DNA of 64,000 nucleotides from Caldilineaceae bacterium (GTDB taxonomy: Bacteria > Chloroflexota > Anaerolineae > Caldilineales > Caldilineaceae). The stretch is from positions 124,001 through 188,000 of the forward strand of contig JAJDTL010000020.1 in assembly GCA_022827195.1 (NCBI GenBank), in the 5' to 3' direction. Positions 25,561-49,632 of the stretch are shown here, piece by piece (within the stretch, counting starts at the first letter, position 1; the number at the start of each line of letters is the position of its first letter). The translations under genes were made by a program, and so were the position numbers. The notes under the pieces were generated by a model that was given only the letters and a program-made list of their open reading frames with translations, was not told the DNA's origin and made no database searches.

Positions 25561-26526
25561 TTACTGGCAGTCGAGAAACGCGGCAACCTCAGCGCCGGTG
25601 GGTATGCCGAGACGGGCGCCTTTCCTGGTGCAGCAGAGTGCGCCCACTGCCGAAGCGAAACGCAGCAGCTCCTCCCACGCCATGCCGCGCGCAAGACCGG
25701 CGGCGAACGCGCCGTGGAAGGCGTCGCCGGCGCCGGTTGTGTCTTCGACTTCGACGGCGAAGGCCGGGTAGCTGCCCGCGCCGGCGCCGAAGCGGCTGTC
25801 GGCGCGGTTGCGCCAGCACAACCCCCTGGCGCCGAGGGTGATGACGGTTGAAGGCGCGAAGTGACTGAGTTGCTCCAGTGCGGTCGCCGGGTCGGACTGT
25901 TGTGAATAGTCCTGGGCGAAGTGTTCTGACACAACCAGAAACTCCACTTTTTCCATTAGCGTCTTCGTGCCGGCGTGGAGCATGTCTCCATCCAGCACGG
26001 TGGGGACGTTTTGCGATCGCGCGCTTTCGACCAGATGATTGGCCGCGTCAATGTGATACCCGTCCACCAGTACGGCGCGCGGGCGGCAGCGCTCCAGCTG
26101 GAACTCGGTTGCACCCGGCAGTTCCTGGCTGGCCTGGCCCGCGTCCTGCGGCAACGTGGTTTCGCGGCCAGGCCATGTGCCGTAGTTGACGAGTGCGCGG
26201 GTGCCGTCCGGCTTGACGAGAATGGCGGAGAGGGAAGTCGGCCTTCCACCGCGGACGACCAGTTCGGTGTTGACGCCGGCCGCGCGCAGTTCATCGACGT
26301 GGCTGTCGCCATACATGTCCTGGCCCAGGTAGCCGGCGAATGCCACGGAGGAGCCGAGTCGGGCGACGGTCATGGCCGCGTTGGACGCAATACCCCCGCC
26401 GCACGCGGTCAACTCGGACGCACGGATCTTTTCGTCCGGGCCGAAGTGACGGTCGACGGAGAAGATCAGATCGTAGCAGGCGATGCCCAGGCAGAGCACG
26501 TCGACGGAGAAAGGAGATCCATTCAC
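25561..26526 (-). CDS. PfkB-family carbohydrate kinase
   Basis: Ribokinase-fold sugar kinase of 321 residues. The N-terminal Gly-Gly substrate motif is in ACGGGIASNAAMTVARLG (about residues 42-59) and the C-terminal catalytic and anion-hole motif is VEDTTGAGDAFHGAFAAGLA with the catalytic Asp in GAGDAF. It phosphorylates a sugar or nucleoside with ATP. The start is GTG 26526. It is the last gene of a tight four-gene operon with a PHP enzyme, an alkaline-phosphatase-fold enzyme and a DUF1638 protein, which suggests a dedicated catabolic or salvage route. Confidence 0.9.
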   Translation of the reverse strand: MNGSPFSVDVLCLGIACYDLIFSVDRHFGPDEKIRASELTACGGGIASNAAMTVARLGSSVAFAGYLGQDMYGDSHVDELRAAGVNTELVVRGGRPTSLSAILVKPDGTRALVNYGTWPGRETTLPQDAGQASQELPGATEFQLERCRPRAVLVDGYHIDAANHLVESARSQNVPTVLDGDMLHAGTKTLMEKVEFLVVSEHFAQDYSQQSDPATALEQLSHFAPSTVITLGARGLCWRNRADSRFGAGAGSYPAFAVEVEDTTGAGDAFHGAFAAGLARGMAWEELLRFASAVGALCCTRKGARLGIPTGAEVAAFLDCQ

Positions 26527-26566: not shown

Positions 26567-27469
26567 TTACAACCAGATTGGATTTGACCATGCTTTGCCG
26601 CCGCGGCGATCGCGCACGGTCAGCCGACAATAGTGGCTGCCCCAGTCTGACAGGTCGAATTCGGCGTCGGTGAGGCCGTTGCCCCATGCGCGCTGGACGG
26701 CGCTGCCGACGCCGGTGAGAAAGATGCGTTCGGCGGGCGAGCAGTGGACGGTGAGTTTTTGGCCGGCGGCGAGGGCGATGTCGTAGATCTGCGGGCCTGT
26801 GCTGGAATAGAATGCGCCGGTCTTGAGCGCGGTCAGCAGGGCTTCCGGCGAGAGCTCCTCGGCCTTCACATGCACCCAGCCGCGACGAAAGTCGTGGTAG
26901 CTGTCGGTGAAGTGGGCATCGTCGGCGGCGTAGGCGAAGTAGCGCTGGCGCCTGTCCAGCAGCAGGTCCATGATGTGCCAACTTTCGGGGCGGTCGTTGG
27001 CGTCCGCGGCGATGCCGTTGAAGACCTCGACCGCGTGCGCCGGCCCGAGTGCGTCGACGTCGGCAGCGGAAAGTGTGTACCAGTGCGGGTGGGCGATGCC
27101 GATGAATGCGCCGGCCTGCATCGCCCGGGCTGCGATCTGGGCGCCGCTTTCGTCGTCAGCCGGCGGCGCGAAATCGGTCGGCAGGCCGGCGGCCACGATG
27201 TGCCAGGCGGAGCCGTTTTCGATCGCGCCGGCGTGCAGTTCCGCGCCCAGGATTGTCGTGAAACCGTCCGAGCGGTAGGGCAGCGTGTCGGTGATGGGAA
27301 AGTCGTACTGCGGCAGGAAATGGTCGGTCAGGGCGATAAAATCGTACCCGGCCTGTTCATAGAGGCGGCAGACTTCCTGCGGTGACTTCGTCCCGTCCGA
27401 GCGAGTCGAGTGTGTGTGCAGATTTCCTTTCCAGAACTGGCCGGGCTTGGCAAAAGGCAGGGACTCCAT
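26567..27469 (-). CDS. PHP-domain metal-dependent phosphoesterase
   Basis: 300-residue PHP-fold hydrolase. Metal ligands are visible in NLHTHSTRSDG (residues about 16-26), FIALTDHF and IGIAHPHWY, with a later HxD-like YAADDAHFTDSYHDF. Family members cleave phosphoesters of small molecules or nucleotides. ATG 27469 has GGAG six bases upstream. The 40-base gap to the PfkB gene and 21-base gap to the upstream gene support one transcript. The substrate may be a phosphate ester made or used by its operon partners. Confidence 0.87.
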   Translation of the reverse strand: MESLPFAKPGQFWKGNLHTHSTRSDGTKSPQEVCRLYEQAGYDFIALTDHFLPQYDFPITDTLPYRSDGFTTILGAELHAGAIENGSAWHIVAAGLPTDFAPPADDESGAQIAARAMQAGAFIGIAHPHWYTLSAADVDALGPAHAVEVFNGIAADANDRPESWHIMDLLLDRRQRYFAYAADDAHFTDSYHDFRRGWVHVKAEELSPEALLTALKTGAFYSSTGPQIYDIALAAGQKLTVHCSPAERIFLTGVGSAVQRAWGNGLTDAEFDLSDWGSHYCRLTVRDRRGGKAWSNPIWL

Positions 27470-27490: not shown

Positions 27491-28423
27491 TTAGGAAGGC
27501 GGCGGTATGTCTTCGTTCAGAAATCCAGCTATGAGAGCGGCGAAATCGTCGAGCCGGCGAATGCGTTGGGCGTAGCCGTCGCTGTGCGCGCCGATGAGAA
27601 CGGTCATGGCCGGGTTCTCGGTATGTTTGCGGGTGGAGCAGTCCTCCACGTTGCCGTGATCGCTGGCGACAACGAGAAGCGTGTCCTGCCAGTCCATCGC
27701 ATCGAGCAGCCCGGCAAGGAAGCCGTCGATGCGTTTGAAGTCTTTGATGGCGCCGCGCAGGTCCCGGTAGTGGCCCAGAATGTCGGTTTGCCAGTGTTCT
27801 AAGAAAGCGAAACGCACTGGCTGGGCAAGGCGCCAGAACTGTGCGCCGGCTTCCTGCGGTGTGTAGACCGGTACATCGGGATAGCCCAGTTGCGTGCGCC
27901 AGCCCTGGCCGGTGAAATTGGCGGACAATGCCTGCCGTGCCTGCATTTCTTTCCATGTCCGCAACCGCAGTCCCCCGCGCCGGGCCGCGTACGGGACTGC
28001 GCTCAACAGGCGTTTGCCCCGGTTGACCGCGTCGAAGTAGCGCTGCGGATAGGCGTTGACGAAAGCGGTCGCATGACCCGCCGCTTGCAGGCGGGCGAAA
28101 ATGCCGGCCTCGTCGAGAATGTCGCGCACGCGCTGGTCCGGGCGGGGACCGTAGTGCTCCCCCAGGCGCGCCGGCGCGTTGACGCCGGTCAGGATGGCCG
28201 CCTGGCCGGTAGCGCTCTGCGGGCGGCCCTGCACGCCCAGATGGGCGTCGGTCGGTATCAGGTGCGCGTCGCCGCGGCTGTAGCGCCCGGTGGAGGCGGT
28301 GAGCGGCTTTCCGCCGAAGAGCCCGGTCAGCGTGGGCAGCGCGGCCGCAGCCAGCGGATTCGTCTGCGGGTCATCCCGGCCCAGGCCGACGCCGTCAAGG
28401 AAAAGGAAGAGGACACGGCGCAT
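27491..28423 (-). CDS. alkaline phosphatase-fold metalloenzyme (phosphomutase-like)
   Basis: 310-residue member of the alkaline phosphatase/phosphopentomutase/phosphoglycerate mutase superfamily. It starts MRRVLFLFLDGVGLGRDDP, where the Asp binds metal. The active nucleophile region is QSATGQAAILTG (about residue 70), and the late metal-binding blocks are VVASDHGNVED and KHTENPAM. It probably moves or removes a phosphate on a small metabolite. ATG 28423 is preferred to an in-frame GTG nine bases earlier. It overlaps or abuts the DUF1638 gene, implying coupled translation. Confidence 0.85.
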   Translation of the reverse strand: MRRVLFLFLDGVGLGRDDPQTNPLAAAALPTLTGLFGGKPLTASTGRYSRGDAHLIPTDAHLGVQGRPQSATGQAAILTGVNAPARLGEHYGPRPDQRVRDILDEAGIFARLQAAGHATAFVNAYPQRYFDAVNRGKRLLSAVPYAARRGGLRLRTWKEMQARQALSANFTGQGWRTQLGYPDVPVYTPQEAGAQFWRLAQPVRFAFLEHWQTDILGHYRDLRGAIKDFKRIDGFLAGLLDAMDWQDTLLVVASDHGNVEDCSTRKHTENPAMTVLIGAHSDGYAQRIRRLDDFAALIAGFLNEDIPPPS

Positions 28424-28435
28424 GGCGGCCACTTG

Positions 28436-29029
28436 TCAAGCGCTGTCCTTTTCGATGATGTCAGCCAGCCGCTCTTCCAGGACCTCCAGTCCGGAGTCGA
28501 CTTCCTTGTACGCCAACCCGAGCCGCGCAGAAGCTGCGCGGGCGCGTTCGCTCTCGTCCTGGTCAGGTAGTTGGCGCAGATAGAGCAACTCTTTGTAGTT
28601 GCCGAAATAGGTGTCGCGCAGTTCAGGGTGGCGGTCGAGGCCCAGTGATTCGATGACGAGGCCTTCGTAATGGTGGGAGAGGAAATCGGTCAGGTAAAAG
28701 GTACCCGGCTGGCGTTCGGCCTGTTCCGCAAAGCGTGCACCACCGTAGAATTCGTAGCAGTGGGGGCCGGGGATGCGAACGGCGTGGGGATAGCGGGCCA
28801 ACAGCGAATCCAGCGCGCCGAGCGTGCCGCAGTCGCCGTAGCCGACGAGGATGCGGTCGAAGCGTCCGGCCCAGGCGTCCAGTTTTTTGGCCACCGCCGG
28901 GGCGATGCGTTCGGGGCGGTTATGCAGTTGCGCTGGAACGGCGGTCAGTTCATAGTCCCAGCCGCGGCGGTTGGCGATGGCGACGAGTTCGCGCACGATG
29001 GCGCCGCAGGCGATGATTCCGACTTTCAC
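28436..29029 (-). CDS. DUF1638 family protein
   Basis: 197-residue protein of the DUF1638 family, with the typical start VKVGIIACGAIVRELVAIA and the GYGDCGTLGALDSLL motif, plus a conserved His/Cys segment PGPHCYEFYGG. Its function is not established; from family knowledge such proteins are often found near corrinoid-dependent methyltransferase systems. The start is GTG 29029. It is the first gene of the operon with the metalloenzyme, PHP enzyme and PfkB kinase. The two conserved Cys and His make a metal site plausible. Confidence 0.8.
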   Translation of the reverse strand: MKVGIIACGAIVRELVAIANRRGWDYELTAVPAQLHNRPERIAPAVAKKLDAWAGRFDRILVGYGDCGTLGALDSLLARYPHAVRIPGPHCYEFYGGARFAEQAERQPGTFYLTDFLSHHYEGLVIESLGLDRHPELRDTYFGNYKELLYLRQLPDQDESERARAASARLGLAYKEVDSGLEVLEERLADIIEKDSA

Positions 29030-29112
29030 GATGGGTCGCTTTTGGCTGCAAATTGGCGTTCTAATGGACTAATGGAAAGCAAGACTGCGGCTTTGGGCTA
29101 TTTCGGCTTTCC

Positions 29113-29340
29113 AGTCAAACAACCGTCAAACAACTGTCAAGCAAATTCTCTGCTTCGAATCCCTGCAATTGTCGAAGAAACCGACCATTTGAGGCTGTTT
29201 TGGGCTTTCTAGTCAAACAACCGTCAAACAACTGTCAAACAATTTCCTGCTCCAGTTCCCCCTTAAGAACCGGTGGGACTGGCCAATTGTGCTTGTTTCA
29301 GGCCATTCAGTCAAACAACCGTCAAACAACTGTCAAACAA
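29113..29340. repeat. three clustered repeats at exact 98-bp spacing
   Basis: A 32-base block made of three GTCAAACAA units 11 bases apart starts at 29113, 29211 and 29309, so the block recurs with a period of exactly 98 bases. About 17 bases before each block are also partly conserved (GGCTGTTTTGGGCTTTC and variants), while the rest of each interval differs. The nine units face the same way. The array fills the gap between the DUF1638 gene and the 3' end of the AlbA_2 gene. It is not a normal CRISPR: the intervals are 66 bases and no cas gene is present. Confidence 0.85.
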
Positions 29341-29361
29341 GCAACGCTCGTTGAGGAACTT

Positions 29362-30828
29362 TCAAGCCCAGTAGGGCAAATACGTCCGGCTCCTGGCACC
29401 AACTTCGGGATCCCGTAAGATGACAAGCCCTGCATCTACAGATTCTTTGAGAAGCCTCGATGCCTGGGATGCGCTCTTTTCGGCGATGCCAAACCGCTCC
29501 CGAATCGATGCATTATTCATGGGAAGTTTCATCACATAGCGCAAACACGCGTGCAGGTAGCAGGCCCGTACGCGTTCCGTTTTGTCCATGTCGTTTAGAG
29601 GCTTCTGAGCAAAGAGAGTTGCCCTTGTAAAGCCATTGGGAGATTCGAACAGAGGGGCCGGCAGTTGATACGCCTCGGCCAGTTCAACAACCTTGTCAAT
29701 TCCACTACCGCGTTCTTCGCAGAAGTTAAACCGGCGCATCATGGAGGCCAAGGTTTCGTTGAGGGATCGCGGCGGTGAATCTACAAAGCGGTCCGTTTCC
29801 ACAAGTGGACTGCCCGGATTGGTAATCCCGATACGGCTGTCGAAAATCTCCACCGTTGGACCAGCACCGCTGACATTGAAGTCTTGGTGGATCAAAGCGT
29901 TGGCGACCAGTTCGCGTACCGCAATATCGGGAAACATCGGTACCGACCGCCGCAAGGAACGTTCGATGACTTCGTTTGCGGGTACGAGCGCCATAATATA
30001 CTCAACCACTCTTGGGAATCCGACAGCATATCCCAATACGCCTTCCTGTTCTCTTACAGTTTCGGTTCGGCCTGCACCGCGATATTGAATAACGCGTATA
30101 GCTTTGCGCCTGATCTGTGGAAAGTCATTCAGATTGCGGGCAAACAGAACAGCACCCAGATTGCTGATGTTCCAGCCCCCTGCGTCGCAGCGCGCAATCA
30201 GCCTGTCATCTTTGAGCGCGTTGAGAATCGCAGCGCGTCCGTCAGGGATAGGCCTGTCAAGTAGATCGAAGTAGGCGGGGTAGTAGAGCTTGTGCAGAGT
30301 GTCTTCATCACCGACCTGTTCTACGGCAACACGATTTTCGAATGTGATTTGGTCGAAGACACGCCAAAGAGTATGCTGCCTTTCAGGGTAATCTTTGAGT
30401 CTTCTCGTGCTGCCGCCCATACGGACAAACTCCTCACCGCCGAAGGACACGGGCTGATGCGATGCTGGTTCGATTTCCAGGAGTACAAGCCGTTTTCCAT
30501 CGACTTGGAGCTCGTTGAAACGAAACTCAATGCGCGGACTTATCTGACTGTAAAGCCAAGTCTCTAGCGGCTCGTTGCCTTTTCTTGAAATTGACGGGGA
30601 AAAGGTAGTACCGACAATTGCATGCGTTTCGTCTTCTATTCCCCAAATGGCTGAGGCAGAGGTCTTTCCGTTGACGGCTGCGCCGTTCGCCAGGGCAGAG
30701 ATATTTTGACCGATGGTTTCCGGATTTCTGTTGTCGCCCTTGAATTCTACCCACTCTGTTTCGCTCGGCAAGCGGCGCAACTCGCGCACCATGCCAGCGA
30801 GGTATTCGGGGCTACGGGCCGGAATCAT
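29362..30828 (-). CDS. AlbA_2/Schlafen-type ATP-binding transcriptional regulator
   Basis: 488 residues. The N-terminal AlbA_2 (Schlafen AAA_4) domain shows SETEWVEFKGDNRNPETIGQ and ISALANGAAVNG. The middle has a GHKL-type ATP-binding domain with VRELVANALIHQDF and the glycine pair FCEERGSGIDKVVELAE. The C-terminal part is a winged helix (MNNASIRERFGIAEKSASQA). Such proteins act as DNA-binding regulators, often near mobile or defence loci. The start at 30828 has a GGTGA site. Codon and base use are less GC-rich than in the neighbours. The repeat array lies 21 bases past its stop. Confidence 0.85.
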   Translation of the reverse strand: MIPARSPEYLAGMVRELRRLPSETEWVEFKGDNRNPETIGQNISALANGAAVNGKTSASAIWGIEDETHAIVGTTFSPSISRKGNEPLETWLYSQISPRIEFRFNELQVDGKRLVLLEIEPASHQPVSFGGEEFVRMGGSTRRLKDYPERQHTLWRVFDQITFENRVAVEQVGDEDTLHKLYYPAYFDLLDRPIPDGRAAILNALKDDRLIARCDAGGWNISNLGAVLFARNLNDFPQIRRKAIRVIQYRGAGRTETVREQEGVLGYAVGFPRVVEYIMALVPANEVIERSLRRSVPMFPDIAVRELVANALIHQDFNVSGAGPTVEIFDSRIGITNPGSPLVETDRFVDSPPRSLNETLASMMRRFNFCEERGSGIDKVVELAEAYQLPAPLFESPNGFTRATLFAQKPLNDMDKTERVRACYLHACLRYVMKLPMNNASIRERFGIAEKSASQASRLLKESVDAGLVILRDPEVGARSRTYLPYWA

Positions 30829-31003: not shown

Positions 31004-32212
31004 TTACTGCAGTGCCTCGCGCATTGCACGCAGGTGGGTCGGCGTCGTGCCGCAGCAGCCGGCGATTACGTCTACGCCGAGGGCCTTCATCTGGCGGGCG
31101 TATTCGGCCATGACTTCCGGCGTGCCATCGTAGATGACATCGTCACCCTGCAGAACCGGCAGGCCCGCGTTGCTCTGGGCGTACAGCACTACGCCAGGGG
31201 GACGGTTCGCAACCATCTCGGTCATCACGGTCTGGATCTCGTCGGGGCCGTTGCCGCAGTTGGCGCCGATTACCTGAACGCCCCAGCTGGCCATTGTTTC
31301 CACCGCCTGTTTGGGACTGACGCCCATCATGGTGTGCAGGTTGGTGTCGAAAGTGAGCATGGAGACGACGGGCAGTTCGGTCGCTTCATCAACGGCGCGC
31401 ACGACGGCTTCCACCTCCTGCAGGTCGCTCATGGTCTCGGTGAGGATGAAGTCGGCGCCGGCTTCGGCCATAACAGCGACCTGTTCGGCGAAGAGCTCCG
31501 TGGCCTCGTCCATGGTCATCACGCCGAGGGGATCGAGCAGTTCGCCGGTCGGGCCGACCGATGCCCCCACCAGTACGCCGCCGGCCACGTCGGCGACTTT
31601 GCGCGCCAACCGAACGCCGGCTGCATTGAGTTCAGCCAGTCTGTTCTCCAGGTCATGCATTTTGAGCCGGGCGGTGGTGCCGCCGAAGGTGTTGGTGGTA
31701 ATGATGTGGGAGCCGGCCTCGACATAGCCGCGGTAGACCGCCTCCACGGCGTCAGGGTTCTCCACATTCCACAGTTCAGGCGCGGCGCCGCCGGTGAGGC
31801 CGGCTTCCTGCAGCATCGTGGCCATGGCACCGTCGCCCAGGAGGGGGCCGCTGTGCCGGTGCAGGCGCTCGATCACCGGATGGGGGCGCGGTGTCAGCCA
31901 TCCGCCGGAGGAAGAGTCGGGAGTTATCGAGGACAGGAGCTTGCGTATTCGTTGGGGGGGATAGTCGGCTTCCAATTGCGCGGCGACGGATTGGGCCACT
32001 TCCTCAGGATTCCCCTCCTGCTCCTGCCAGTCTGTACGGAGCCAGCCGTCCAGGTATTCGTCGGTGCCGGTTGCGCCGGCGCGCATGGCGGCTTCGTCGA
32101 TTGCGACCTGGAAGCGGGCCGGCAGTTGGACCTTGTGGCGGTCGCGGGCGCCGGCTCTGGCCACGACCATCGATGGAAAGTCGCGCCAGTATGTGATCTG
32201 ATATTCTGTCAT
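31004..32212 (-). CDS. homocysteine S-methyltransferase-like protein with N-terminal Virulence_fact domain
   Basis: 402 residues in two parts. Residues 1-95 (TEYQITYWRDFPSMVVARAG onward) match the small Virulence_fact domain. Residues 115-402 are a homocysteine S-methyltransferase barrel with zinc ligands in QVIGANCGNGPDE and IAGCCGTTPTHL, and the opening GPLLGDGAMATML. The enzyme class moves a methyl group from betaine, S-methylmethionine or similar donors to a thiol. ATG 32212 fits the ribosome site GAGG better than ATG 32221. A TATAAT box lies about 60 bases upstream. The fused small domain may receive or sense the methyl donor; this is inferred. Confidence 0.85.
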   Translation of the reverse strand: MTEYQITYWRDFPSMVVARAGARDRHKVQLPARFQVAIDEAAMRAGATGTDEYLDGWLRTDWQEQEGNPEEVAQSVAAQLEADYPPQRIRKLLSSITPDSSSGGWLTPRPHPVIERLHRHSGPLLGDGAMATMLQEAGLTGGAAPELWNVENPDAVEAVYRGYVEAGSHIITTNTFGGTTARLKMHDLENRLAELNAAGVRLARKVADVAGGVLVGASVGPTGELLDPLGVMTMDEATELFAEQVAVMAEAGADFILTETMSDLQEVEAVVRAVDEATELPVVSMLTFDTNLHTMMGVSPKQAVETMASWGVQVIGANCGNGPDEIQTVMTEMVANRPPGVVLYAQSNAGLPVLQGDDVIYDGTPEVMAEYARQMKALGVDVIAGCCGTTPTHLRAMREALQ

Positions 32213-32270
32213 CGTTGACATACCTCAATGGTCTCGAAGTCAGCGGCCAGTTGCCGCCGTCCATCGTCGA

Positions 32271-49582: not shown

Positions 49583-49600
49583 GGGGGACATATGTCCCCC
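49583..49600. repeat. perfect 18-bp palindrome
   Basis: GGGGGACATATGTCCCCC reads the same on both strands. Its right half starts the adjoining 10-base tandem repeat. It could be a protein-binding site or part of a mobile repeat. Confidence 0.7.
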
Positions 49601-49632
49601 AATGTCCCCCAATGTCGTCCAATGTCGCCCTA
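49593..49632. repeat. 10-bp tandem repeat, four units
   Basis: TGTCCCCCAA occurs twice, then TGTCGTCCAA and TGTCGCCCTA, all in phase. The first unit overlaps the right arm of the palindrome. A run of T follows the array on the plus strand. Confidence 0.8.

Follow-up and report, generated by a model that had tools for sequence, protein, structure and literature searches.

An array of 11-bp direct repeats precedes a DUF1638 operon in a Caldilineaceae genus and may act as its promoter-operator region

The window analysed here, a stretch of 64,000 nucleotides from a member of the Caldilineaceae (Chloroflexota), carries nine short repeated units. These lie between two minus-strand features, an AlbA_2 gene and the beginning of a DUF1638-metalloenzyme-PHP-PfkB run of genes. 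From sequence comparisons, and with about even confidence, we propose that this array is the cis-regulatory promoter-operator region of the DUF1638-metalloenzyme-PHP-PfkB operon and consists of duplicated modules of ~88-100 bp with cooperatively bound direct-repeat sites. The array is probably an iterated switch for this operon and not an AlbA_2-specific target, because it is kept where AlbA_2 is missing and precedes the operon in 16 of the 17 genomes surveyed. Protein-binding direct repeats are the best reading of the units because the units are under strong constraint, their spacing is conserved and no RNA structure was found.

The initial annotation had described nine GTCAAACAA units in this region. 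Nine sites in three clusters are present, but eight are exact copies of GTCAAACAA and one is a variant, GTCAAGCAA (29136-29144). The units start at positions 29114, 29125 and 29136, 29212, 29223 and 29234, and 29310, 29321 and 29332, which bears out both the 11-bp spacing within clusters and the recurrence of clusters every 98 bp exactly. The sequence preceding each cluster was rightly described as partly conserved, the three 63-nt blocks that end in a cluster being 73-81% alike. By chance, 0.22 copies of GTCAAACAA are expected in the window, and at least eight copies were obtained in none of 100 shuffles. Because they precede a minus-strand gene, the units are better written as TTGTTTGACNG, the orientation used in Table 1. 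A common DNA face had been proposed for all units; this is so for the units of one cluster, but at 10.5 bp per turn it fails from cluster to cluster, since 98 bp then makes 9.33 turns and rotates successive clusters by ~120 degrees. All three clusters share a face only if the helix has about 11 bp per turn. A coding repeat was rejected, as the plus-strand open reading frames over the array (28670-29212 and 29200-29418) cannot hold their frame at a 98-bp period.

Table 1. Positions in the window of the array, its promoter-like elements and the surrounding genes
Feature	Position	Strand	Description
Homocysteine S-methyltransferase	31004-32221	-	
AlbA_2 gene	29362-30828	-	Schlafen AlbA_2 (PF04326) and HATPase_c_4 (PF13749); upstream of the array
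Cluster 1	29308-29340	-	Three 11-bp units, TTGTTTGACAG-TTGTTTGACGG-TTGTTTGACTG; upstream-most for the DUF1638 operon
Promoter-like pair, module 1	29286-29314	-	TTGACT (within the last unit), 17 nt, CACAAT; 9 of 12 sigma-70 consensus matches (consensus scan)
Spacer, clusters 1/2	29243-29307	-	65 nt
Cluster 2	29210-29242	-	Three 11-bp units, TTGTTTGACAG-TTGTTTGACGG-TTGTTTGACTA
Weaker promoter-like pair, module 2	29187-29216	-	TTGACT, 18 nt, TCAAAT
Spacer, clusters 2/3	29145-29209	-	65 nt
Cluster 3	29112-29144	-	TTGCTTGACAG-TTGTTTGACGG-TTGTTTGACTG; nearest the gene
Leader	29030-29111	-	Separates the array from the DUF1638 start codon, which lies 93 nt after the start of the last unit
DUF1638 gene	28436-29029	-	PF07796; leads the presumed target operon
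Metalloenzyme	27491-28432	-	Presumed operon
CehA/McbA-type PHP metallohydrolase	26567-27469	-	Presumed operon
PfkB/ribokinase-like kinase	25561-26526	-	Presumed operon

Along the minus strand, homocysteine S-methyltransferase is followed by AlbA_2, the array, DUF1638, metalloenzyme, PHP, PfkB and a PhyH-type dioxygenase; the array thus does abut an AlbA_2/GHKL gene, as had been noted. The S-methyltransferase carries an N-terminal 'Virulence factor' domain (PF13769), and its gene is divergent from two PnrA-like (Bmp) binding protein genes and an ABC ATPase gene.

The conservation of this arrangement was analyzed in 17 genomes of the genus, that of the window being G000; the named relatives carrying the array are Caldilineaceae metagenome-assembled genomes. 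DUF1638 is present as a single copy in all 17 and the array lies directly before it in every genome except G004. The last unit starts 84-86 nt ahead of the DUF1638 start codon in 14 of the 16 genomes (93 nt in G000 and 75 nt in G012). The number of modules varies from one (G003 and G005) to two (most genomes), three (G000), four (G012) and five (G010), and the modules within G010 and within G012 are nearly identical. There are three or two units to a cluster, and in some cases a single one, resulting in periods of 98-100 or 87-88 bp, whereas the spacer between clusters is 65-67 nt throughout, so that the last unit of one cluster and the first of the next are 76-78 bp apart (about 7 x 11). Spacer sequences differ between genomes (mean identity 62%, minimum 48%); a CRISPR-like array was rejected, as these spacers are related and the repeats are composites of 11-bp units.

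A scattering of the blocks over the genome would have spoken against the initial annotation, but a single locus was found: across the 5.2 Mb of the genome, no second locus matched the 31-base cluster when up to 3 mismatches were allowed, and the two-unit pattern searched genome-wide at up to 2 mismatches returned the same array only. Beyond the genus, no array was detected in other genera among 396 genomes of the class, and matches in other phyla and in viral contigs were mostly single two-unit sites. In G004, the region upstream of DUF1638 (L159) contains a 12-bp-periodic coding-like repeat (GAGGTCAAAGCAGAGCTGCAG...).

To compare the evolution of units and flanks, the alignment was anchored at the last unit and parsimony changes were counted. 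Over the last two units (22 bases), 0.64 changes per site were required, compared to 2.83 in the following 47 bases, and units therefore change about four times less than their flanks. Position 10 of the penultimate unit alone accounts for 6 changes, nearly half of the unit total, the other unit positions having 0-3. A similar difference was observed in the nine genomes in which the array has no adjacent AlbA_2 gene (0.29 changes per site, with the free position 10 left out, compared to 1.23; permutation p = 0.00025), whilst in the six-genome clade without AlbA_2 taken alone it was not significant (p = 0.2). Averaged over genome pairs, the two units are 92% identical, compared to 71% in the 30 nt that follow and 74% at DUF1638 third codon positions. 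These values bear on the view that the array is a neutral minisatellite, in which an 11-bp slippage repeat grew as a unit of ~98 bp was duplicated in tandem, the period being a by-product. The range of one to five copies, the near identity of modules inside G010 and G012 and the irregular spacing of a copy elsewhere in G004 (see below) are all in line with such an origin. However, neutrality is hard to reconcile with units that evolve about four times slower than flanks even in the absence of AlbA_2, with a spacing that is held while the spacer sequence diverges and with the near-fixed distance to the DUF1638 start, and we consider the minisatellite unlikely.

In most copies, the last unit provides a TTGACT that is followed about 17 nt downstream by CANAAT, a configuration resembling a sigma-70 promoter, and this 17-nt spacing is common to the copies in relatives. 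The last unit of the final cluster reads TTGACT or TTGATT, with position 10, although free in the penultimate unit, fixed as T; in the other clusters the last unit does so too, with one exception, TAGACT in G001. Among 15 dissimilar copies and over spacings of 5-29 nt, the match to TATAAT peaks exactly 17 nt past TTGACT (2.93 of 6, compared to 0.7-2.6 elsewhere). The best TATAAT score at 16-18 nt exceeded all of 2000 shuffles, a p value that is optimistic as related copies were treated as independent. The module nearest the gene has a weaker -10 in several genomes. A structured RNA or riboswitch was rejected, with 0 covarying pairs, -0.5 kcal/mol and only a sub-threshold chance match in Rfam.

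Combined, these features suggest how the array might work. Tandem duplication of modules of ~88-100 bp would build the promoter-operator region, each module providing one to three head-to-tail 11-bp sites, reading TTGTTTGACNG on the operon strand, to which a candidate protein recognising direct repeats would bind cooperatively. With a -35-like TTGACT in the last site and, in most modules, a -10-like CANAAT about 17 nt downstream, occupancy of the sites would control the access of RNA polymerase at each module. Promoter activity, the binder and the sign of control are parts of this scheme that we infer. Several observations argue against the promoter-operator reading: the -10 is often poor in the copy closest to the gene (the best match in cluster 3 of G000 is 2/6), the constraint is not significant in the six-genome clade without AlbA_2 taken alone, a single-locus site is unusual for a regulator with a regulon, and G004 has DUF1638 but no array before it.

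AlbA_2 had been put forward as the natural binder, and we also analyzed how far the array and this gene go together. Firstly, AlbA_2 adjoins the array in 6 of the 17 genomes only (G000, G002, where it is interrupted, G008, G009, G010 and G012, where it has one internal stop), and in G013 a 3' remnant lies next to the array. Secondly, nine genomes have an intact array with no AlbA_2 adjacent to it, DUF1638 being beside the array in all 16. Two of these, G011 and G015, are single-contig genomes, and their best genome-wide matches to AlbA_2 are weak ones to the GHKL domain only. AlbA_2 as the sole partner of the array is ruled out by this survey, and the protein cannot maintain the array in the nine genomes without an adjacent copy, unless a distant paralogue acts in trans. 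The expected association in relatives thus holds in part: adjacency is restricted to the six genomes, but wherever AlbA_2 or a remnant survives the offset is constant, the first unit beginning 25 nt past the same point of the AlbA_2 3' end in 7 of 7 loci compared, G004 included, and likewise, by eye, in the window.

An operator or 3' element of the AlbA_2/GHKL protein, whose C-terminus is winged-helix-like, maintained by the binding of this protein, would account for that offset, which is found even in the relic of G004, where the surrounding type I restriction locus is unrelated. The C-terminal helices 416-465 are predicted to be HTH-like, in a weak model obtained from a shallow alignment (mean pLDDT 54.5). 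However, the constrained arrays of the nine genomes without adjacent AlbA_2 do not fit, no 11-bp array was found in the neighbourhood of AlbA_2 homologues of 41-45% identity and the sequence downstream of the 49% ortholog in G039 shows none. We therefore regard an AlbA_2 operator as distinctly improbable, and AlbA_2 binding is unsupported as the reason for the persistence of the array. The broader suggestion of cooperative binding or an unusual array fares better: with AlbA_2 set aside, protein-binding direct repeats are retained.

The relic in G004 (L197:5810-6380) consists of a broken AlbA_2 gene between hsdS-like and hsdR-like sequence (by eye); downstream of it come twelve TTGTTTGATG units, spaced by either 11 or 13 bp, and a sequence that by eye is a BrnA-like remnant. 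Phase is thus lost in this copy, whereas it is kept beside DUF1638. In G001, G003, G005, G006, G007, G014 and G016, the slot between the S-methyltransferase and the array resembles an insertion hotspot by eye, containing AlbA_2, BrnT/BrnA-type toxin-antitoxin-like pairs or their remains and ribbon-helix-helix genes, several of them degraded.

At homologous loci in other genera, the S-methyltransferase is just upstream of DUF1638 in 10 of 13 cases, and the array is present in 0 of the 13 examined. From this comparative evidence, the array probably entered the site with an AlbA_2 cassette whose insertion separated S-methyltransferase and DUF1638 genes that were ancestrally a pair. The pattern of AlbA_2 presence requires five changes on the operon tree, and the simplest history is an insertion of the AlbA_2 cassette with its repeats between the two genes followed by repeated loss of AlbA_2; horizontal replacement is a less simple alternative. 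The AlbA_2 copies of G002 and G000 are about 92% similar, more than the 83% between G012 and G000, although G012 is the sister genome of G000 on the tree, which indicates that AlbA_2 moved or recombined. After loss of AlbA_2 in several lineages, the array would have been kept as the operon's own control region. A more specific version, in which repeats first carried on a mobile AlbA_2 cassette were captured as the operon control, tuned between species by gain or loss of ~99-bp modules (1 to 5) and bound by a protein of undescribed specificity, is tentative and, taken as a whole, unlikely.

Known operators offer several comparisons. CarH operators of Thermus, Bacillus and myxobacteria consist of 3-4 tandem head-to-tail 11-bp direct repeats, one of them containing the -35 (PMC9304148, PMC8156234), and the array shares this architecture, down to the -35-like element inside a repeat. 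It could thus be the operator of a CarH/LitR-type B12-dependent MerR repressor, and one MerR + B12-binding protein (474 aa, L172:685-2109, the MerR part assigned by eye) is encoded in the window's genome. However, the consensus nAnnTnnACAn is not matched: T instead of A occupies position 2 in nearly all units and the free position 10 of the penultimate unit coincides with the last A of ACA. CarH also has one operator per promoter, compared to the one to five duplicated modules found here. Orthologs of the MerR + B12-binding protein in 14 other genomes of the genus are only about 50% identical, and none was found in G004 or in G012, the latter having four clean modules and an assembly about 96% complete. 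A CarH operator was rejected on these grounds and has very little probability left.

The sites might also belong to a response regulator of the OmpR/PhoB type, a family that likewise binds 11-bp direct repeats. The units have a TGTCA-like core, and their reverse complement, CTGTCAAACAA, is reminiscent of a Pho-box half-site. PHO boxes of PhoP-type response regulators with 11-bp direct repeat units are documented in promoter regions (PMC9019756). Such boxes form a multi-locus regulon, whereas a single locus per genome was found here even at two mismatches, and the orientation of the sites is opposite to the gene. A Pho-type regulon is disfavoured, as is CarH, and we assign the response regulator a low probability; as the identity of the binder, however, it is compatible with the promoter-operator explanation. 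Finally, BldC binds cooperatively, head-to-tail, to varying numbers of direct repeats (PMC5859096); the variation in repeat number is alike but the BldC unit is the 9-bp AATTXXXX(C) rather than the 11-bp TTGTTTGACNG.

If the promoter-operator reading is right, the genus would supply closely related uncultured bacteria whose promoters vary naturally in how many near-identical operator modules they contain, and thereby material on how tandem duplication of a whole promoter-operator affects gene control. It would also be a case of a cassette-borne element turned into a host control region, here of the DUF1638 operon. Elsewhere in the window, positions 49592-49630 are occupied by 3.9 copies of a 10-bp short tandem repeat, ATGTCCCCCA.
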